Shown here piece by piece: positions 4,010-15,626 of a stretch of 24,312 bases of DNA. A model generated the notes under the pieces. It ran no database searches. It was not told the origin of the DNA and saw only the letters and a list, made by a program, of their open reading frames with translations. The position numbers and the translations under genes are program-made. The DNA is from a virus. The DNA lies in the IMG/VR virus record IMGVR_UViG_3300020200_000174, positions 1 through 24,312 of that record, one strand, 5' to 3'. Each line of letters begins with the position of its first letter. The first letter of the stretch is position 1.

Positions 4010-6571
4010 TCATGGGTGCCACTCCTTTTGGGCGGCCCAGTTGGGGCCAGTCGTGATTTCGGCGGTGAGTTGGACGGGGAGCAGGCCGTCGAGCATGTGC
4101 GAGAGGATACTGCCGCAGACTTGGTCGACGTAGTCGGCGCGCACGATGAGGTTTATCTCGTCGTGGACGAGGGAGATGATGTGCGCCCGGGCGGGGTCGA
4201 GTTGGCGGTGGACGCGCTTGGTGGCGAGCTTGATGATGTCGCCGGCGGTGCCCTGGATGACCAGGGGTACGCACTCGCGTTCGGCCTCCAGTTGCTCGTC
4301 GCTCGCATCGACCGAGGACCAGGGAATGTCAACGCGCATCCGGGTGTCCTGGTGGTCGCGGTGCAAGCCGTGCCAAATCTTGGTCAGGGTGCAGCGACGG
4401 CCGAACCAGGTGTTGACGTAGCCGTGCTCGTAGGCGAAGGGGATGAGCTCGTTGGCGTGCCATTGGGTGAAGCGGGGGTAGTTGCTGTCCATGTTCCGGC
4501 ACCACCCGAGAGCCGCTTCGGGGTCGAGCCAGAACGCGCTCTTGCGGATGCCGCCGGAGCGGGCGCGGTTGAGCCACGCCATCGCCATGCGCTTGCCGAT
4601 TTGCCGCTGCTCGCGGTCGACGGTGGGAACGGGGATGTTGTAGGCGAAGGAGGCGGCGGTCTTGTAGACGTCGCCCCCACCGAGCAGGTCGCGGCCCCAG
4701 GCCTCGTCACCGGAGACGATGTAGCCGATGATGGGCTCTTCCTTGCTGACGTCCGCCTTCACCCACGTCCATCCGGGCGGGGCGCAGAAGGCGCTTCGGA
4801 TTTGGTGGGCCCACTCCATGATATAGGGTCGTTCCGTGTCTCCGTGGTGAGTGATGTTCTGAACATTTGGTCCACGAGAAGCCAATCTGCCAGTCTCTGG
4901 AGCCTCGGCCCCCGCCGCCGGCGTTTCTTCGAAGGCACCCGCTTGGATGAATGACGGGTGGATTTTCCCGTCCTCTTGTACCAGCTCAGGCAGGCGTCGA
5001 ACGTTATTGCGCAGAGCCTGTTGAATGGATGAGCGATACTCCAGCAAGGGGAGGAGTGGCGTCTCGACCGAAGGAAGGCGTGCCAGGGCGCGAAGTGCAG
5101 CCAGCGAAGTCGAGGGCGCTTTGTTGCCGGGGACGTACTGCAAGGGCAGCGACAGCCCGGGCGGGATGAAAGCGAGTTTCGATGAGGCGCCAAAGCGAAT
5201 ACCAGGAGCACAGCCGCAAGTATCCACAGGAACACGAGGGCGCCGAGTACAGTTAGCATCGTGAATCGACCGTCCTTTCCGTTCTCCGACCCGCTTCAAT
5301 CGCATCCGCGGCGGGCCGTACAGAACATTGCTTATGCCATGGGGTGAATCCCAGTTGACCTCGTAGGGGTACACGTCGACGAGCTTTGCAGTGACCTCGG
5401 CCAGCTCCGCGGTCAGTTCGACGTCGAGTTTCTGGAGCGGCGCAACGTCGAGGGGGATGCCGGCCATGTGCATTTCGGCGAGGATGGGGATGAGCGGCCG
5501 CTCGATTTCCGTGTAGACGGGGGTCAGCTTCTCGACGCGCAACTCTTCGCTAAGGTGGTCGAACAGCCGCAGCGTCATGTCGGAGTCCGCACAGCCGTAC
5601 TGGACGACGTTGTTGATGTCAGACCAGTCGACGTCCTCGAAGTGCGTCTGGCTTATCTGGAGGCACGCGAGGGAGAGGTCCTTTAGGTGGGTCGACGGCT
5701 TACGCAGGACGTAGGCCATCGTCTTCGTGCACTCGCCGTTCTCCAAGTGGATGCCCTGCATCGCGCACATGACGTACTCGTATTGGAGGTTGTGCGCCAC
5801 CTTGATGACGGTCGGGTCTTCAAGGACGTGCTTGATGCAGGTGATGGGGTCGGTGGTGTAGCGCGCCTCGCCGCGGCAACGCGACACGGAGAAGCCGATG
5901 GGCCGGCCGCGCATCATGGAGAAGGTGCGCGCCCACTGGTGGGAGGCGGCGTCGGCTTCAAAGTCGAAGGCGATGCACGGGGCACCGCACACGTAATCGG
6001 CCATTTCCTTCCCGGTCACACGGCGGTAGTCGGTGGGATTTGGACGAGGGGTGAAGTCGCCGCGGGCGTACTCGTCGGTGAACCGGTTGGCGTCGAGCTC
6101 CATCTCGGCGAGGATTTTCGGGTTGCGCAGCCCGTAGGCGGGGTGGAACCACGGTACGACCCAACCGCTCCAGGTACCAAGGGTGCCGCGGAAGGGTGCG
6201 CCGTGTACGCTGGTGATTTTCACCTTCGACGCGAAGACGTGCAAGGGGGTAGCGCCTAGCGTGATGATGACGGCGGGTTGCGCGCGCTCAACCTCATCGG
6301 TGAGCAGCGGGAGGAAGGGCTCGATTTCGGCGTTGGTCGGGGTGCGGTTGCCCGGGGGCCGGTACTTCACGACGTTGGTGACGTAGTAGCGGCTGGTGCC
6401 GGTGTACTCCACGATTTGGCGCAGCAGCCGACCGGAGCGGCCGACGAACGGGCGTCCCTTCAGGTCCTCGAATTCGCCCGGCGCTTCGCCGATGAGCATG
6501 ATGTTCACCGGCGTCGGCCCCTCCCCCGGCACATACCGCGCGTTGGGGTATGGCGACGGTGGGATGTTCAT
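4010..6571 (-). CDS. Uracil-DNA glycosylase / family A DNA polymerase fusion
   Basis: An 853-aa replicative polymerase with an N-terminal family-4-like uracil-DNA glycosylase domain. Start ATG 6571 overlaps the dNMP kinase stop as ATGA; longer readings run into that gene. Glycosylase: GEAPG at 28-32, PFVG at 41-44, RPPGNR at 71-76, HPAY at 143-146. The 3'-5' exonuclease follows with DFE at 203-205, then a YGCADSD motif. The polymerase has ASRGPNVQNI, motif A ADVSKEE and motif C HDE near 803-805, and ends GPNW...KEW. The family-4 Fe-S cluster cysteines are absent (KY where KC is usual). Motif B reads RQIGKRMAMAWLNRARSGG, so the usual Phe and Tyr of the O-helix appear to be Met and Asn. A similar fusion is known in SPO1-type phages. 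It would replicate the phage genome and may act on uracil. Confidence 0.95.
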   Translation of the reverse strand: MNIPPSPYPNARYVPGEGPTPVNIMLIGEAPGEFEDLKGRPFVGRSGRLLRQIVEYTGTSRYYVTNVVKYRPPGNRTPTNAEIEPFLPLLTDEVERAQPAVIITLGATPLHVFASKVKITSVHGAPFRGTLGTWSGWVVPWFHPAYGLRNPKILAEMELDANRFTDEYARGDFTPRPNPTDYRRVTGKEMADYVCGAPCIAFDFEADAASHQWARTFSMMRGRPIGFSVSRCRGEARYTTDPITCIKHVLEDPTVIKVAHNLQYEYVMCAMQGIHLENGECTKTMAYVLRKPSTHLKDLSLACLQISQTHFEDVDWSDINNVVQYGCADSDMTLRLFDHLSEELRVEKLTPVYTEIERPLIPILAEMHMAGIPLDVAPLQKLDVELTAELAEVTAKLVDVYPYEVNWDSPHGISNVLYGPPRMRLKRVGERKGRSIHDANCTRRPRVPVDTCGCAPGIRFGASSKLAFIPPGLSLPLQYVPGNKAPSTSLAALRALARLPSVETPLLPLLEYRSSIQQALRNNVRRLPELVQEDGKIHPSFIQAGAFEETPAAGAEAPETGRLASRGPNVQNITHHGDTERPYIMEWAHQIRSAFCAPPGWTWVKADVSKEEPIIGYIVSGDEAWGRDLLGGGDVYKTAASFAYNIPVPTVDREQRQIGKRMAMAWLNRARSGGIRKSAFWLDPEAALGWCRNMDSNYPRFTQWHANELIPFAYEHGYVNTWFGRRCTLTKIWHGLHRDHQDTRMRVDIPWSSVDASDEQLEAERECVPLVIQGTAGDIIKLATKRVHRQLDPARAHIISLVHDEINLIVRADYVDQVCGSILSHMLDGLLPVQLTAEITTGPNWAAQKEWHP

Positions 6572-7137
6572 GGTAGCCACCCTTCCTCCTTCAACTCGCT
6601 GGCGCACTGGAGCAGCTCGGGCGGCGTCAACATGGAACCTACCATGGTGAAGCACTTATCGATAGCGTGCGGGCGCCGTGTGCTCAATGGGATTTCTGAT
6701 TCGTGGCCGGTTGGCTGGGTGTTAGGTGTGCGGGGATAGAGTTCGAGTATGCGGCCGCCCATGCCTTGTAGGAAGTCCGCCTCGTTCGGGAAGCGGACGT
6801 CGTCGACGACGAAGCGCATTTCCTGTGGTGCCTGTTTGATGGCGTTGACGAGCTTTAAGGCCCACACGGCGGGGTGGATGGAGCGGACGCCCTCGGTGCC
6901 GAGCTTCTGGAGCATCTCGCGGTGCGTCCTGCCCCACTGTGGGCATAGCTGTTCAATCCAGGGGTAATGGAAGTGTGCGGCCGGGCACCCGTAGATGTAG
7001 ATAGCAGCGGTACGGATGGGGTGCGCAAACGAGACGCGCTTGTAGTCGTGCTGCACTTCTAGCAGCTTGGCTAAGGTGGTCTTGCCGCAGCCAGATGGGC
7101 CGTGGATGCCGATTATTCGGACTGCTTCGGTTCCCAT
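6568..7137 (-). CDS. Deoxynucleoside monophosphate kinase
   Basis: A 189-aa P-loop kinase that would phosphorylate dNMPs to dNDPs for phage DNA synthesis in the cytoplasm. Walker A is GPSGCGKT at residues 13-20. GRTHREMLQKLGTEGVR and later FVVDDVRFPNEADF are the signatures I associate with phage dNMP kinases. The start ATG at 7137 has AGGAG eight bases upstream. Longer readings only cover the overlapping peptidase gene in another frame. It overlaps the upstream metallopeptidase gene by 25 bases and the downstream polymerase start by four, consistent with translational coupling within a nucleotide-supply and replication unit. Confidence 0.9.
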   Translation of the reverse strand: MGTEAVRIIGIHGPSGCGKTTLAKLLEVQHDYKRVSFAHPIRTAAIYIYGCPAAHFHYPWIEQLCPQWGRTHREMLQKLGTEGVRSIHPAVWALKLVNAIKQAPQEMRFVVDDVRFPNEADFLQGMGGRILELYPRTPNTQPTGHESEIPLSTRRPHAIDKCFTMVGSMLTPPELLQCASELKEEGWLP

Positions 7138-7454
7138 GTGCTGAACTCCTGTAGCAAGGTGAGGATGTCCGGGTTGTGGACAATCAGGTCGAGGATACCG
7201 TTCGCCATGCCCTCGATGAAGCCCTCGGACGGCTCCTCGTAGGGCGCGTAGATGTGCTGGATGACGTGGAGCAGTTCGTGTATGAGGCACTGGACTTGTT
7301 CGATGTCGTCGACGTCGTCGCGCAGCTTGATGTTGTGCTGGAGGAAGTCGGCCTCCGCCAACAGGTTCATCCGTTGGAGGTAGGGGGTCTCGTGGGTGAC
7401 GGTGTAGGGGAACGCGCTGACGTAAATCACGGGGAGTAACTCGGGGATTGACAT
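7113..7454 (-). CDS. Small HExxH metallopeptidase-like protein
   Basis: A 113-aa protein with LIHELLHVIQHIY, giving the zinc-binding and catalytic HELLH at residues 59-63, and SEGFIEGMANGI downstream, where Glu-81 could be the third zinc ligand. This is the arrangement of small phage and ImmA-like zincins. The start ATG at 7454 has GGAGG six bases upstream. No signal peptide, so cytoplasmic. Substrate unknown; it could process a phage or host protein. Its 3' end overlaps the dNMP kinase by 25 bases. Residues 16-25 (PYTVTHETPY) are encoded by a 34-nt sequence repeated exactly at 2194-2227. A structured non-coding leader lies directly upstream. Confidence 0.8.
   Translation of the reverse strand: MSIPELLPVIYVSAFPYTVTHETPYLQRMNLLAEADFLQHNIKLRDDVDDIEQVQCLIHELLHVIQHIYAPYEEPSEGFIEGMANGILDLIVHNPDILTLLQEFSTWEPKQSE
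7377..7410 (+). repeat. 34-nt exact direct repeat, copy 2
   Basis: Identical on the + strand to 2194-2227. Here it lies inside the - strand metallopeptidase gene, where it is read in reverse as PYTVTHETPYL with ordinary GC-rich codons for this genome. Copy 1 has atypical codons, which suggests that this copy is the older one. Confidence 0.9.
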
Positions 7455-10618: not shown

Positions 10619-11329
10619 TCACCTTGGTAAGCCCAGGAGGGTGCGCAGGTGGTTGGACTGCCACGCATGTTCCGCCGTCAGCGCCGCGTCGTTTAGCGTG
10701 TTATCGCTAATCTTGAACCCGAAAGAGCCCGCAGCGTAACGGGCAGCGTAGGCGGCGTCCGTGGCAAATGCTGCCCAAGCGCCTGTGTTAAAGTGTTCCA
10801 GACCAACGGCGGTCACACAGCGGTAGGCAGCGTTGGCACCGATGTTGATGTAGGAGTTTGACCGTGTCTTCCAGGCAAACGTACCCCACAGTTCGGTGAA
10901 TGTGAGTAATGGGAGGGTGCCAGCAGGGAGGGCTTGTCGGGCGGTCGCAATCTTCTCGTGGGCGAGGGGGGCATCAGTCGCGTCCCAAAGGGTGAGGACG
11001 TGCTCAATGCAATCCAGGGCGAAGGTCGCGATGAGCTGTGGGGTGTAGGTGCCAACCTTTTCGAGCAAGCGCGCTCGTTGGAAGACGGCCTTCCCTAGCG
11101 AGTCGAGATGGCGGAGTGGGACGCCGTCACCTTCGACCGTATAGAGGGCGGGGCCAAGCCAGGCGATTAGGTGGTCCACGTCACAAACGTGGTAGCCACG
11201 AACACACAGTTCAATGTTGCGGATAAGGCGCATCCACTTGGCGGGCTGGCCGTCTTTCGGTAGGTGCCAACGGCCGCTGCCGCCGTGACAGGGGGTGCCG
11301 TCGACGTGGAGAAACTTGTAGTAGGTCAT
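10619..11329 (-). CDS. Phage/actinobacterial-type hypothetical protein, 236 aa
   Basis: It starts at ATG 11329 with GGAGG upstream and overlaps the ERCC4-nuclease stop as ATGA. The first 75 residues, YYKFLHVDGTPCHGGSGRW...PAKWMRL...CVRGYHVCDVDHLIAWLGPALYTVEGDG, match a pattern I have seen in uncharacterised phage and actinobacterial proteins (YKFL...DG...W.LP....C..G.H.C....L..WL...L..VE). The rest is alanine-rich and helical (AAYAARYAAGSFGFKISDNT). Function unknown. Its place after the phosphatase and nuclease suggests co-expression with that accessory group. Confidence 0.75.
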   Translation of the reverse strand: MTYYKFLHVDGTPCHGGSGRWHLPKDGQPAKWMRLIRNIELCVRGYHVCDVDHLIAWLGPALYTVEGDGVPLRHLDSLGKAVFQRARLLEKVGTYTPQLIATFALDCIEHVLTLWDATDAPLAHEKIATARQALPAGTLPLLTFTELWGTFAWKTRSNSYINIGANAAYRCVTAVGLEHFNTGAWAAFATDAAYAARYAAGSFGFKISDNTLNDAALTAEHAWQSNHLRTLLGLPR

Positions 11330-11979
11330 AGCGCCTCCTTTATGCGAGTGAGTACCGATTCGGGAACCTTGCAGTCACGTAACTGCTCGTCGGTGGGGCG
11401 TAGGAGTAGGATGCCGTCGGGCCAACGGGCGTAAAGGCGCTGCAACATGGCGGGGCCGACGCCCCGAACGGATGCAACCATACGCTGTTTGGTCTTGCGG
11501 CTGTCTGAGCCGGCGATGGCTTGGAACGGGGCGCGCGAATCCTCGGCCATGAGCAGCTTGTAGGCGCCCAGTTGGCCCATAACTTCGCTGTCGTCGGTCG
11601 AGAGTGGCAGTAGCAGGATGCCCAACAGTTGCAGGGAAACGAGGTATGCCATCACGTTCGTGTGGAAGTGGTGGGGGACGCCACCCCGCAGCGCCAGACA
11701 GACGATGCCGTCCGGCCCCACTTCGTCACGACACGCCCGCAGTTGGCGGGCGAGGCGGCGGGTTGAGATGGATTGCAGGAGGTCGGGTTGCCGCTTCGCC
11801 TCGACGGCGACCAGGCGGTTGCCAATGGCGAAGGCCCAATCAAGCTCCTGCGGCATCTTGACGTGGACAACGCCATCGGATTCGGTTAGGGCGCGCAACT
11901 CGCCCTTCCCGCAGAGCAGCGCACCCTGGGGTCCAAGGAAGCGGGCGCCATCGTAAATACCATCCGGCTGTAGGTTCAT
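11326..11979 (-). CDS. ERCC4/XPF-type nuclease with helix-hairpin-helix end
   Basis: A 217-aa protein. Residues 51-80 read AIGNRLVAVEAKRQPDLLQS and continue ISTRRLARQL, the ERCC4 nuclease core in which GDx(n)ERKx3D appears as G53-N54...E60-A-K62...D66, so two motif positions are altered. The last 55 residues (VASVRGVGPAMLQRLYARWP...KVPESVLTRIKEAL) form a helix-hairpin-helix DNA-binding region. Nucleases of this family cut branched or flapped DNA; here it could resolve replication or recombination intermediates. Start ATG 11979 overlaps the phosphatase stop as ATGA, with only a weak ribosome site, so translation is probably coupled. Confidence 0.85.
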   Translation of the reverse strand: MNLQPDGIYDGARFLGPQGALLCGKGELRALTESDGVVHVKMPQELDWAFAIGNRLVAVEAKRQPDLLQSISTRRLARQLRACRDEVGPDGIVCLALRGGVPHHFHTNVMAYLVSLQLLGILLLPLSTDDSEVMGQLGAYKLLMAEDSRAPFQAIAGSDSRKTKQRMVASVRGVGPAMLQRLYARWPDGILLLRPTDEQLRDCKVPESVLTRIKEAL

Positions 11980-12626
11980 CCGCGATTCACCACCTGTTCA
12001 TATTCGTCCAGCAATTTCAACTGCTCGAGCGTCTCCACGGCGTACTTGCAGTATTGGGTGTGGATGTTGTCCAGAGCGGCCGTGGCGGTGCTGCCTTGCG
12101 CGATGAGCAGGGCGGCTAGCACGGTGCCGGTGCGGCCATGCCCGCCAGCACAGCCAATCTCCACCCGCTCTCCGTTTTCCACCAGGCGAAGGATGGTGGA
12201 GACTAACGTACCAAGGTGGTTAACATGGACAACCCCATAGTCCTGCCAGGGCAGGTAGATGACGGGGAAGGCGAGGTTATACTTGTCGGTGGGTGGGGTA
12301 TGAAACCCAAGTGCGGGGCTGTTGTAAAGGATGCCGGGGCGGTCGAGCCACTGCGAGGCGAGGTAGACGCCGATAGTGGGCCATTCGGCTTGCGCGGGGG
12401 TGCTTGCCGAGCGGTAGGCCGATGCGTAGATAAGCCTGCCGTTGCGGAGGGTGACGGGCGTGACGTGGTGCTCGCATGGGGCTTCCGTGACGGTGGTAAC
12501 GGTGGGTTCCTGGAGCCATAAGAAGCAGGGCTTGCAGATGCGCTTGATGTCGATGCCAAACATGGTCATTCCTCCTTCAAGTTCGGATTCGGGGTAAAGC
12601 TCTTCGCAAACGTCGCACGTTAGCAT
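11976..12626 (-). CDS. Zinc-ribbon / dual-specificity Cys-phosphatase
   Basis: A 216-aa protein. Residues 1-40 hold CDVC (4, 7) and CKPC (31, 34), an N-terminal zinc ribbon. The rest is a tyrosine/dual-specificity phosphatase. It carries the signature GCAGGHGRTG, with catalytic Cys-159 and phosphate-binding Arg-165 (CX5R), and YLPWQDYG, where Asp-129 is a likely general acid. Such enzymes remove phosphate from proteins, nucleotides or RNA through a phospho-cysteine. Start ATG 12626 overlaps the PEP-synthase-like gene by seven bases with no strong ribosome site, so coupling is likely. Being coupled to a phosphotransferase suggests that both act on the same target. Confidence 0.85.
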   Translation of the reverse strand: MLTCDVCEELYPESELEGGMTMFGIDIKRICKPCFLWLQEPTVTTVTEAPCEHHVTPVTLRNGRLIYASAYRSASTPAQAEWPTIGVYLASQWLDRPGILYNSPALGFHTPPTDKYNLAFPVIYLPWQDYGVVHVNHLGTLVSTILRLVENGERVEIGCAGGHGRTGTVLAALLIAQGSTATAALDNIHTQYCKYAVETLEQLKLLDEYEQVVNRG

Positions 12627-13675
12627 CGGGTCACACTTCCGTTGCGACCGTCCACGGTGACAACCTCACCATTGGCCAGGATGTTGGCGAGGGGTTGGCC
12701 GACCACGCACGGCTTGTTGAACTCGCGGCAGACGATGGCGGCGTGGCAGGTGCGCCCGCCAACGCTGGTGACGACGGCCACGGAGGCGCGGATAGCCTGT
12801 ATCATGTCGGGCTTGGTCATTTGCGTGACGAGGACGCTGCCCGGGCGGAATGGTTCCTCGCTCGGTTGGCGGTGGACGGGGCCAGTGCCGACCAGTTTGG
12901 TGATGCCCAAACCTGGCTTGCCTGCGAAGTTGGCGAGGATGCGGTGCGAAATGGGTCGCACTTGGAGTATCCAAAGCAGGTCGTCGCTGTCCGAGTAGGC
13001 CCATTCAACGTCGATGGGGTGGTTAAACTCCTTCGTCAAGCTGATTAGGGCGGACATAAGCATGGAGAACCAGCGGGGGTTCCCGGGTAGTGACATCTCC
13101 TGCAAGGAGGCGGAGAGGGAACCGGCGGGTGCGACTTCGCCCGAGACCAGGCCGCTCCCATCTTGGCGTTCCACCCAATCGAGGCAACCTTTGTACATGT
13201 TGCCGCTGTGGATGTCGACGCTCAGGTAGGTGCCCGCCATGGCGATGCCCTCAACCATTGGCTGTACGAGGACAGGGAGGGTATCGGGCAGCATGACGTC
13301 GAAGGCTTCGGCGTAGAGGCGCGCTGAGTCGGTCGTCCGCCGCACTTGCTCAATGGCGGCAGTCAAGGCGGCGGCTTCGGCGGGGACATTGAGCAGCGTC
13401 TTGAATTGACCGGCGAATGAAAGCTCACCGGTGTCCTCGACCGGCGCTGACGACCGCACGGCCAAGAGTGCAGTCGGCTTGATGGCGTAACCCATTACGT
13501 TAAGGTCGGCAGCGATATCTCCCCGATTGGGCGTTGTGTGTGGCTGGGCAACCCAAGTTACCGGCACGTTGTAACGGCCGATGAGCTTCTGGAGGCCGAC
13601 GCCCTTGCCCCCGATAAGGGCAAGCCGTTCTTTGAGTGAACCAGTAGGTGCGTTTGCAATCAGTCTAAAGAGCAT
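12620..13675 (-). CDS. PEP-synthase/PPDK-like phosphotransferase lacking the substrate domain
   Basis: A 351-aa protein. Residues 1-245 are a PPDK_N/ATP-grasp nucleotide domain: GGKGVGLQKL at 22-31, AVRSSAPVEDTGELSFAGQF at 72-91, VLVQPMVEG near 135-143, SGLVSGEVAP at 174-183, DVEWAY at 222-227 and WILQVRPI at 235-242. Residues 279-350 are the swivelling phosphohistidine domain, GSVLVTQMTKPD...SVGGRTCHAAIVCREFNKP, with His-311. The PEP/pyruvate barrel of PEP synthase, and the extra domain of rifampicin phosphotransferases, are missing. It should move phosphate from ATP to His-311 and then to an unknown acceptor. ATG 13675 is preferred to an upstream in-frame start because GGAGG lies eight bases before. 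Overlaps the Cys-repeat gene by 11 bases. Confidence 0.9.
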   Translation of the reverse strand: MLFRLIANAPTGSLKERLALIGGKGVGLQKLIGRYNVPVTWVAQPHTTPNRGDIAADLNVMGYAIKPTALLAVRSSAPVEDTGELSFAGQFKTLLNVPAEAAALTAAIEQVRRTTDSARLYAEAFDVMLPDTLPVLVQPMVEGIAMAGTYLSVDIHSGNMYKGCLDWVERQDGSGLVSGEVAPAGSLSASLQEMSLPGNPRWFSMLMSALISLTKEFNHPIDVEWAYSDSDDLLWILQVRPISHRILANFAGKPGLGITKLVGTGPVHRQPSEEPFRPGSVLVTQMTKPDMIQAIRASVAVVTSVGGRTCHAAIVCREFNKPCVVGQPLANILANGEVVTVDGRNGSVTRC

Positions 13676-14654
13676 GGTGCTTCCTCCACATAGCCGCATA
13701 CTGGCGGTCGCAGATAGATACTAGGTACGCCACGTTGCCACTTTGGTTTTCCGAGAGGATGGGAAATAGGTGGCGGCTGGACGACCACACCTTATCGAAC
13801 AGCGAACCGCCGTTGTGCTGAATGCCGAAGAGGGAATCCACGAATAGGGTTGGGGTGATTTCGTCCTGCAAGTAGGAGTAAAGGAGACCGGCGACACGCG
13901 CCCAAGCCTCACCCCCGTAGACGGTGCCAGGGCACAGCTCGAAGATTCTGATGGCGGTCCGCAAGGCCTCAATACCGTAGTATTGCCGGATGCGGAACCA
14001 AGTGAGCCACGCTTCGGACCGCCCACCGTGAAGGTTTTGCATGACTTCTTCGACGGGGGAAGCGACCTGGCTAGCGATTTCGCGGACGCTGTGGCGCACC
14101 TCACCGCCGACGGCCATGTCGACATAGCGGGCGAAGCGTTCGGCCAGATCCTTTGCGTAGGGCTTGAACAGCCCCTCGTCGAGGCCGTCCAAGGCGAGGT
14201 CGTACAGGACGTAGAAGTTGGCGGCGTTATCGGGGAGGGCGAAGTCCGGGTCGATGTCCCACAGCTTTAACGCGCGGTGCCGCTTGCTGCCACAAAGGCA
14301 GTCAAGCTCGTCGCACTCGGGGCAGCGTGTGCAGTGGCAGTCTTGGAAGCGCTCCCCGCAGCGGGCGCACTGGTCACATTGGCACTGCTCAAGCAAGTAG
14401 TTGCAATACTCGCAACGGTCGCAGGAGCAGTCGACATCGAGTTGGGTGCAGTTGTCACAACGGTAACATTCGCAAAGGTAGACGAGTTCGTCACATCGTT
14501 CACACCGAGGGCAAATGCACTCGTCGCTGATGGCGTCGCACTCGGGGCAGCGCACGCAGGTGCAATCCGGTATACACTCATCGCACGCGGAACACCGTTC
14601 GCAGGTGCAGTCAGGGGTGCGGTTGATACAGTAGGCACAGAGTACGAGTGGCAT
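13665..14654 (-). CDS. Eight-repeat cysteine array protein with C-terminal phage domain
   Basis: A 329-aa protein. Residues 6-121 are eight tandem modules C-x2-C-x6-C-x-C-x2. They start at Cys 6, 21, 36, 51, 66, 81, 96 and 111, an exact 15-residue period; only the last is two residues short. With one extra Cys at 27 this makes 33 cysteines, probably binding zinc (or Fe-S) once per module. Residues 125-329 are a helical domain with VYGGEAWARVAG and LFVDSLFGIQHNGGSLFDKV, which resembles uncharacterised phage domains (YGG..W, HN.GS...KV). GGAGGTTAA precedes ATG 14654, so the helicase stop and this start abut. It is followed with overlap by the phosphotransferase. A scaffold or nucleic-acid-binding partner is inferred; I cannot name the family. 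Confidence 0.85.
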   Translation of the reverse strand: MPLVLCAYCINRTPDCTCERCSACDECIPDCTCVRCPECDAISDECICPRCERCDELVYLCECYRCDNCTQLDVDCSCDRCEYCNYLLEQCQCDQCARCGERFQDCHCTRCPECDELDCLCGSKRHRALKLWDIDPDFALPDNAANFYVLYDLALDGLDEGLFKPYAKDLAERFARYVDMAVGGEVRHSVREIASQVASPVEEVMQNLHGGRSEAWLTWFRIRQYYGIEALRTAIRIFELCPGTVYGGEAWARVAGLLYSYLQDEITPTLFVDSLFGIQHNGGSLFDKVWSSSRHLFPILSENQSGNVAYLVSICDRQYAAMWRKHHAL

Positions 14655-15626
14655 TTAACCTCCATTCAGACCGATTAGTTTGCGGGAGAGATGGAGCGGG
14701 TCGGGCCAGCGGCAGATGAGACCCTCTCGTTCTGCGTCGGCGACCCACCGTTCGACCTCCCGCACGGACACGCCGCAAGTGTTGGACAGCTCTTGCTTGA
14801 GGTTGGCCCACAACTGGGGGCCGGCGGCGAGTGCGTTGCGGAGGACGGTGAGGTATTCGGCGCCTGCACCCTCGACCAGCTCGAACAGGCCGGTCGTGTA
14901 GTTGACGCTTAGTTGTTGGGTGGGCGGGTGCTTGGTGCGGGCGCGCGTCTTGTGGTACTGGAGCGTCCAGACTGTTTGCGGGTTGTTGCAGGTTAGCCCG
15001 AGGACGGTCGAGGGGCGGTCAGTCCAGACGCTGTTGCCACGGGCGGCGTACTTGCCGTCGTCGTGGAATTCCAGGGACGGTTTCCTTACGTGGTGGATGC
15101 CGATGAAGGTAAGGGGGTTGGGCGCTGCCATCGAGAGGCCGTCGATGGCCGAGTAGAACTCGTCGCCCACGTTCGAGTCGTTCTCGTCACCGCGGAAGAA
15201 GGCACGGAGGGGGTCGATGACGAGTACGTGCGGCGCAACGGCGGTGATGGCTTCACTGAGCCGCTGGAAGCCGGATTGCGTGTTGACCTTCAGGTCAGCC
15301 ACGGTCGTGATGGCGAGGTGGTGGGCGGGCAAGTCCTTGTACGAGGAGAGCAACTTGCGAAGCCGCTCCTGATATTCGCCCTCGGCCACCTCGGCCTGGA
15401 CGATGAGAACCTTGAATGAACGGGGGACACGACGGGTGAAGAAGTCCCCCGCACTGGCTAGTTCGAGGGCCATTTGCAGGCCCAGGTAGGACTTGCCGGC
15501 CTCACTCGGCCCGACGATGAGCAGCTTCTCGCCCAAGGCGAGGATGCGGTCTTCGATGACCGGCTCGTAGGGGAAGTCTTGCTGAACGAAGTCCTCCGCC
15601 CACCAGACCTTCGCCTCAGTGCTCAT
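14655..15626 (-). CDS. RepA-type hexameric replicative helicase (RecA fold)
   Basis: A 323-aa ATPase with Walker A GPSEAGKS at 39-46, Walker B VLVIDPL at 134-140, a sensor-like FIGIHHVRK, and AARGNSVWTDRPSTVLGL. This is the order found in RSF1010 RepA-like AAA_25 helicases of plasmids and phages. The last 75 residues (YLTVLRNALAAGPQLWANLK...SVREVERWVADAEREGLI) form a winged-helix DNA-binding region. It would unwind DNA for the family A polymerase; no primase or DnaB is visible in the window. Start ATG 15626 overlaps the upstream stop as ATGA. Confidence 0.85.
   Translation of the reverse strand: MSTEAKVWWAEDFVQQDFPYEPVIEDRILALGEKLLIVGPSEAGKSYLGLQMALELASAGDFFTRRVPRSFKVLIVQAEVAEGEYQERLRKLLSSYKDLPAHHLAITTVADLKVNTQSGFQRLSEAITAVAPHVLVIDPLRAFFRGDENDSNVGDEFYSAIDGLSMAAPNPLTFIGIHHVRKPSLEFHDDGKYAARGNSVWTDRPSTVLGLTCNNPQTVWTLQYHKTRARTKHPPTQQLSVNYTTGLFELVEGAGAEYLTVLRNALAAGPQLWANLKQELSNTCGVSVREVERWVADAEREGLICRWPDPLHLSRKLIGLNGG

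Follow-up and report, generated by a model that had tools for sequence, protein, structure and literature searches.

In phosphoenolpyruvate (PEP) synthase and PPDK, an ATP-grasp domain phosphorylates a His domain, which swivels to an acceptor site on a barrel. In rifampin phosphotransferase (RPH), the acceptor is handled by a helical domain. We analyzed a 24.3-kb virus record (IMGVR_UViG_3300020200_000174), called the window below, whose minus strand carries three consecutive genes for a Cys-rich protein with a conserved domain (X), a barrel-less kinase of the PEP synthase type and a Cys-based phosphatase. These three families form a widespread, strictly co-conserved module present in at least two groups of phages. 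We consider it about an even chance (probability near 0.5) that they make up a dedicated phage phosphoryl-transfer module, in which an ATP-to-His relay would serve an acceptor other than pyruvate, handled by X, and the phosphatase would reverse the transfer. A search of the open-access literature for the trio and for Tc-R-P and PTP-SAK phosphatases returned no description of the trio as a system, in agreement with the initial annotation, which knew of no named phage system of this kind. Pyruvate and PEP enzymes go unmentioned in the NAD-ADPr virus survey (PMC9503650).

The recurrence of the trio was assessed in IMG/VR. Single-sequence scans with the window proteins retrieved no relatives there, and alignments were required. 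Profile scans gave 101 relatives for X and 185 for the kinase, of which 80 loci each were kept, with many contigs common to both, and 39 loci, mostly of the compact type described below, came from a scan that used X sequences resembling that of the window. About 100 further viral contigs carry the three families grouped on a single strand, as do sequenced phages, namely Vibrio phages SIO-2, VH2_2019, PG28 and KarBoss, Stenotrophomonas phage Summit, Rhizobium phage RHph_Y1_11 and Rhodobacter phage RcZahn. In every one of the 129 loci where X came with two or more further core hits, all of these hits were co-oriented; the count treats overlapping stretches of one contig as separate. The phosphatase followed X in 76 of 80 X loci; of the four exceptions, three run into a contig end and one (L090, in our numbering of loci) has an overlapping gene call. 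Where 3.9 kb or more of upstream sequence was available (61 X loci), a kinase was present in 59, that of L061 lying just outside the stretch.

Both X and a phosphatase also occurred in the examined stretch for 44 of the 49 kinases shorter than 760 aa. The five exceptions are L093, L140 and L171, which lie close to or at the end of a contig (L093 has a phosphatase), L097, a 755-aa PEP-synthase-like protein, and L164, which is phage G. None of the 31 longer kinases (at least 760 aa) on viral contigs had X or a phosphatase nearby. This is our main control, as it indicates that ordinary PEP synthases from viral contigs come without such neighbors. The initial annotation had treated the three genes as one unit, a view that the neighborhood survey upholds, since the genes are not found apart in most relatives. 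MT835602.1, MT838023.1 and CAKLQF020000002.1 were discarded as phage relatives because they carry an ordinary full-length ppsA with a PpsR-like gene nearby; filed as phages, these records look like bacterial contamination.

Several arrangements of the module were observed. In the sequenced phages, the order is kinase, small genes, first phosphatase, X, second phosphatase, further genes and DNA polymerase, with only the first phosphatase in SIO-2. Their kinases are 645 to 735 aa long and define the large type. The compact order, X-kinase-phosphatase, is that of the window, L178 and L197, and of L093, which is cut. The ATP-grasp and His domains are separable: some phages have them as separate genes, of 236 to 284 aa and 103 to 146 aa, respectively, around X and the phosphatase (L179, L181, L183, L189, L191, L193-L196 and L199, and L198, where the phosphatase side is cut), and the His domain was the only one of the two found in contigs L118, L123 and L200. 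An SprT-like protein (family F4) is encoded just upstream of X at L179:6117-6788, at L183:3292-4017 and in relatives; its metalloprotease motif HExxH is altered to HNxxH, and it is thus probably inactive. The Vibrio phage cassette also has a CsrA-like gene between the kinase and the first phosphatase (L008:5752-6234; PF02599, 28.2 bits against a cut-off of 27).

The window kinase matches PEP-utilizers (E = 1e-22) and PPDK_N (E = 1.4e-21), both above the curated cut-offs, and PEP synthases in the PDB. No pyruvate/PEP barrel was found by Pfam in its 351 residues, the only matches being PF01326 and PF00391, and the chain stops after the His domain. K24, R74, E224, Q238, R240 and H311 are invariant across nine aligned kinases; we take them to be the catalytic residues of PEP synthase/PPDK. 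These residues and the lack of an acceptor domain support the description of this protein in the initial annotation as an ATP-to-His engine devoid of such a domain. PEP synthase models are its nearest (135.9 bits, compared with 40.4 for the PPDK model TIGR01828). It scored 124.7 bits with the PEP synthase equivalog TIGR01418 (cut-off, 739.75), 68.1 with the RPH model NF041857 (cut-off, 999) and 25.7 with TIGR01417 for enzyme I of the phosphotransferase system (PTS; cut-off, 341.7). Judged by these curated models, it is not a member of the PEP synthase, RPH or enzyme I families.

Kinases of another type occupy the same slot in the large cassettes. Three large-type kinases and phage G gp139 scored 362 to 566 bits with TIGR01828, versus 97 to 155 bits with two PEP-synthase models, whereas L094 and L095 are of the PEP synthase type like the window (185 to 209 bits; PPDK, 56 to 58 bits). 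The tested kinases mostly missed the PPDK cut-offs, except for L005, which reached 467.6 bits with PRK05878 (cut-off, 456). In a phylogenetic tree, the large-type and phage G kinases formed one clade (100/100) separate from the compact kinases; long branches were flagged and make finer placement unsafe, and the tree was used for these two groups only. The C-terminal part of the large-type kinases is barely conserved, with no conserved acceptor domain. No PEP-binding Pfam match was found in that part of the L008 kinase, and a barrel is not recognizable in the large type.

The phosphatase matches PTP-SAK (E = 1.8e-9) and Tc-R-P (E = 4e-8), both above cut-off. Its P-loop reads CAGGHGRT, and a knuckle that we read from the sequence as C4, C7, C31 and C34 precedes the phosphatase domain. 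Among 196 relatives, D129 is kept in 191, C159 in 195, and R165 and Q202 in all; the Asp, Cys, Arg, Glu and Gln positions are each kept in 191 to 196. The enzyme is thus, by its sequence, a member of the Cys-based superfamily of dual-specificity and protein tyrosine phosphatases (DSP/PTP), with a CX5R P-loop, an Asp general acid and a Gln, and its catalytic residues are kept across the family. Cassette phosphatases are labeled "thymidylate synthase" in phrog_17568, DLP3 gp141 and several Vibrio phage records, a label apparently transferred from one record. A phosphatase of the same group is encoded by the Methanocaldococcus jannaschii plasmid pDSM2661_1 (L173:5854-6294; E = 8e-11); profile searches found no X or PEP-utilizers match in the records of the M. 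jannaschii and Paenarthrobacter plasmid phosphatases.

The Cys array of the third protein comprises seven CxxC-x6-CxC blocks spaced by exactly 15 residues, with 33 Cys in 121 residues. The initial annotation saw in it the target or adaptor of the system. The gene does travel with the other two, but their constant companion is the domain behind the array (residues about 123 to 327), which had been overlooked, and most X homologues have few cysteines, so that an essential role of the array as target or adaptor is not supported. Cys-rich forms of X occur in L118/L202 (26 Cys), L184-L188 (38), L200 (31) and L201 (37), and the phosphatases of these loci are Cys-rich as well (20 to 29). The array probably binds metal and is an optional add-on in the family; the Cys-rich parts in general look like interchangeable metal-binding adaptors.

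The X family has twelve invariant columns over 102 aligned sequences, including the nine residues listed in Table 1. AlphaFold2 predicted an all-helical X domain for the window protein (block means of 84 to 98 pLDDT), with low confidence for the Cys array, and gave a cleaner model for the X of L181 (mean pLDDT of 91, pTM of 0.85). The sole match of the domain is phrog_20946, of unknown function (residues 238 to 313, E = 3e-8). X had no Pfam match over cut-off and no relative in the PDB by sequence. Against PDB structures, the best Foldseek E values were 3.9 for the window model and 1.6 for the cleaner one, and the best Z scores by VIA were 3.4 and 3.1, although the absence of a fold match is no proof of a new fold. 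X was thus not recognized as a known enzyme in these searches. A viral structure library returned four phage proteins (E of 1e-3 to 9e-3, probability of 1.00), followed by noise. Resemblances to RNase III (Z of 3.3) and, for the window X, to a RIF-binding domain (Z of 3.1 over 72 residues, absent from the rows for the cleaner model) are too weak to build on, and a metal site formed by E185 and H188 was abandoned because H188 is a tyrosine in several compact members. The X domain was also seen in very long open reading frames (ORFs) of 1,210 to 1,908 aa (L214:3307-9030, L215:4751-8380 and L216:3285-7838), with a HAD-like start, by eye, in that of L214 and weak nucleotidyltransferase matches in L214 and L216.

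In the window, the three ORFs lie on the minus strand at the positions given in the initial annotation, whose overlapping gene ends are equally accurate (Table 1). The end of X (13665) runs past the kinase start (13675) by 11 bases, and the ribosome-binding site of the kinase, GGAGGAAG, sits within the last codons of X. The kinase stop and the phosphatase start share the 7 bases ATGCTAA, and a 4-base overlap (ATGA) joins the phosphatase to the next gene.

Table 1. Features of the trio and its flanking genes in the window.
Feature	Coordinates	Strand	Basis
X gene, 329 aa: N-terminal Cys array and helical X domain	13665..14654	-	ORF; phrog_20946 match; 102-sequence family alignment
Cys array, 15-residue repeats, 33 Cys in residues 6-121	14289..14654	-	Repeat reading; low model confidence; absent from most homologues
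X domain, invariant E185, R187, G247, G248, W251, D273, H280, N281, K288	13674..14288	-	Alignment; AlphaFold2
Barrel-less PEP-synthase-type kinase, 351 aa, ATG with GGAGGAAG site	12620..13675	-	PF01326 and PF00391 over cut-off; PEP synthase best model
Swivelling His domain (PEP-utilizers, residues 276-346), catalytic H311 in GGRTCHAAI	12638..12850	-	Profile match, alignment, PDB match
Cys-phosphatase (DSP/PTP fold, 216 aa), N-terminal CxxC..CxxC knuckle	11976..12626	-	PF22784 and PF22785 over cut-off; resembles solved PTPs
Phosphatase P-loop C159-AGGHG-R165	12132..12152	-	C in 195/196 and R in 196/196 relatives
Upstream neighbor, AAA_25 ATPase, start of the same gene block, outside the trio	14655..15626	-	Profile match
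Downstream neighbor, weak ERCC4-nuclease-like match, outside the trio	11326..11979	-	Profile match; ATGA overlap with phosphatase

The trio belongs to a block of replication and recombination genes that starts with the AAA_25 ATPase and continues downstream with the weak ERCC4 match, a PD-(D/E)XK nuclease, a Sak4-like protein and DNA polymerase A. L093, L178 and L197 have an ERCC4-like gene close to the cassette as well. The polymerase gene (4010-6655, minus strand) encodes in one protein DNA polymerase A, a 3'-5' exonuclease and an N-terminal uracil-DNA-glycosylase domain. A deoxynucleotide monophosphate kinase-like match (6568-7200, minus strand; PF21448, 31.5 bits against a cut-off of 27.1) may hint at a special nucleotide.

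In the module that we propose, the kinase would spend ATP to phosphorylate its own swivelling His domain on H311, in the fashion of PEP synthase. The phosphate would then pass to an acceptor other than pyruvate, as the pyruvate/PEP barrel is missing. X would be the partner on the acceptor side, either binding the acceptor and completing the transfer or being itself the phosphorylated protein, and the phosphatase would remove the phosphate and thereby reset or trim the product. The Cys array and the zinc knuckles may be optional targeting modules. What the sequences themselves establish, and what favors the proposal, is the co-conservation of the three families in co-directed overlapping genes, the intact catalytic residues, the missing barrel, the lack of a conserved C-terminal acceptor domain in large-type kinases, the two exchangeable kinase types, the split kinase genes and the invariant E, R, D, H, N and K of X. 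That phosphate would be added to and removed from one target, as the initial annotation proposed, is a reasonable hypothesis. The direction of flow and the role of the phosphatase as the reverse step would follow from this arrangement, and the location in a replication block points weakly to a target linked to nucleic acids. Several observations weigh against the proposal. Seven contigs (L184, L201, L203, L204, L205, L206 and L091) have X and a phosphatase but yielded no kinase domain, so that the kinase may not always be required or may come from the host. In phage G, the kinase is present, and no X match was found. No fusion of kinase and X was found among the examined loci. Placing X on the acceptor side is a guess from co-conservation, X having no identified relative.

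The kinase-less contigs also bear on another explanation, which we consider unlikely, namely that X and the phosphatase are the real system, for example one that alters a phosphate-bearing signal molecule or a host protein by way of counter-defense, and that the kinase is an accessory charging step. The adjacency of X and phosphatase in an Actinomycetota and a Nanoarchaeota metagenome-assembled genome and the X-phosphatase-X arrangement of L203, L204 and L208 are in line with it. Nevertheless, nearly all large-type loci have a kinase, the kinase is of two exchangeable types, and the kinase-less contigs may be incomplete or contain distant versions that escape detection.

A second alternative is a special case of the proposed module with a named target. 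The module would phosphorylate or phospho-activate a base or nucleotide of phage DNA, with X handling the nucleic acid and the phosphatase trimming. It would then be a new nucleic-acid modification machine, a relay detached from metabolism that charges a base or sugar of DNA or RNA via X, with phosphatases trimming or reversing; we regard this as rather unlikely. The lead comes from phages DLP3 and DLP5. DLP3 has the whole cassette (gp135-gp141, with X detected by profile), and DLP5 has kinase and phosphatase matches. DLP3 DNA resisted 15 of 15 restriction enzymes (PMC7326821), and DLP5 DNA was cut by only 4 of 36 (PMC5834331). No thymidylate-synthase-type hydroxymethylase (PF00303) or QueC (PF06508) match was found in DLP3 or the six other complete carrier genomes (0 of 7 for each), whereas the control was positive in 9 and 12 of 14, respectively. 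The absence in DLP3 holds despite the thymidylate synthase label of gp141, which occupies the place of the second phosphatase. The cassette lies within the replication block in both lineages, and the window has the deoxynucleotide monophosphate kinase-like gene. On the other hand, DLP3 and DLP5 are close relatives, and a glycosyltransferase and sugar genes of DLP3 could account for its DNA modification, which makes these data a lead and not evidence of function. Our literature search found no restriction data for the Vibrio, Rhodobacter and Summit carriers, and the cassette contains no known base-modifying family. The helical domain of 5-hydroxymethyldeoxyuridine DNA kinase, HMUDK_hel (PF18723), had no match in carriers or in controls, nor did X match it by Pfam. 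If true, this explanation would help account for the DNA of DLP3 and DLP5, which is heavily modified and chemically uncharacterized.

It is improbable that three unrelated early genes stay together through inherited gene order only. Synteny in the large lineage extends to the surrounding genes (DNA polymerase, portal), as hitch-hiking would predict. In the compact lineage, however, the same families have a different order, kinase type and neighbors, and the presence of two kinase cores in the slot by X and the phosphatase favors a common function over an inherited block. Very improbable is a metabolic auxiliary gene that feeds host glycolysis by pyruvate-PEP conversion, a reading that draws on the family resemblance of the kinase and on annotations in Vibrio phage papers (PMC12038007, PMC9229204 and PMC10141217) but is disfavored by the barrel, absent in the window and compact kinases and unrecognizable in the large type, by scores far under the PEP synthase cut-offs and, except for L005 with PRK05878, mostly under those of PPDK, and by the full-length metabolic PEP synthases of viral contigs, which lack X and phosphatase neighbors. 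Carbon metabolism thus looks like the wrong reading of phage barrel-less PPDK/PEP-synthase genes.

Genes now listed as stray metabolic genes would become one conserved phage module, present in very different phages and centered on the uncharacterized X family. If the acceptor is found, the module would represent a new phage control of host proteins or a new nucleic-acid modification. The isolates RcZahn (Rhodobacter capsulatus) and VH2_2019 (Vibrio natriegens), whose hosts are non-pathogenic laboratory bacteria, make the question testable.

The auxiliary genes annotated as "PPDK" and "tyrosine phosphatase" in Vibrio and Stenotrophomonas phages belong to the same cassette, of the large type; they were published singly as metabolic or signaling genes, and their link with X and the phosphatases was left uninterpreted there. 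Like bacterial and archaeal DSP/PTP enzymes such as SsoPTP, the cassette phosphatase has the CX5R P-loop, the Asp general acid and the Gln loop, but it has extra zinc knuckles or Cys-rich parts and is always beside X. The kinase shares with PEP synthase and PPDK the ATP-grasp and swivelling His domains with their catalytic residues; unlike them, it has no barrel, sits beside X and a Cys-phosphatase and is sometimes split. In its manner of working, the proposed module would be a His phosphorelay comparable to RPH or the PTS. Split cassettes resemble the PTS phosphorelay (enzyme I and HPr) in that a His relay would run across separate proteins, although the cassette uses ATP-grasp and not PEP. 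RPH likewise has a PEP-synthase-type core that phosphorylates a target other than pyruvate, but it does so as a single chain with its own acceptor domain, whereas the acceptor side of the cassette would be a separate protein, X.

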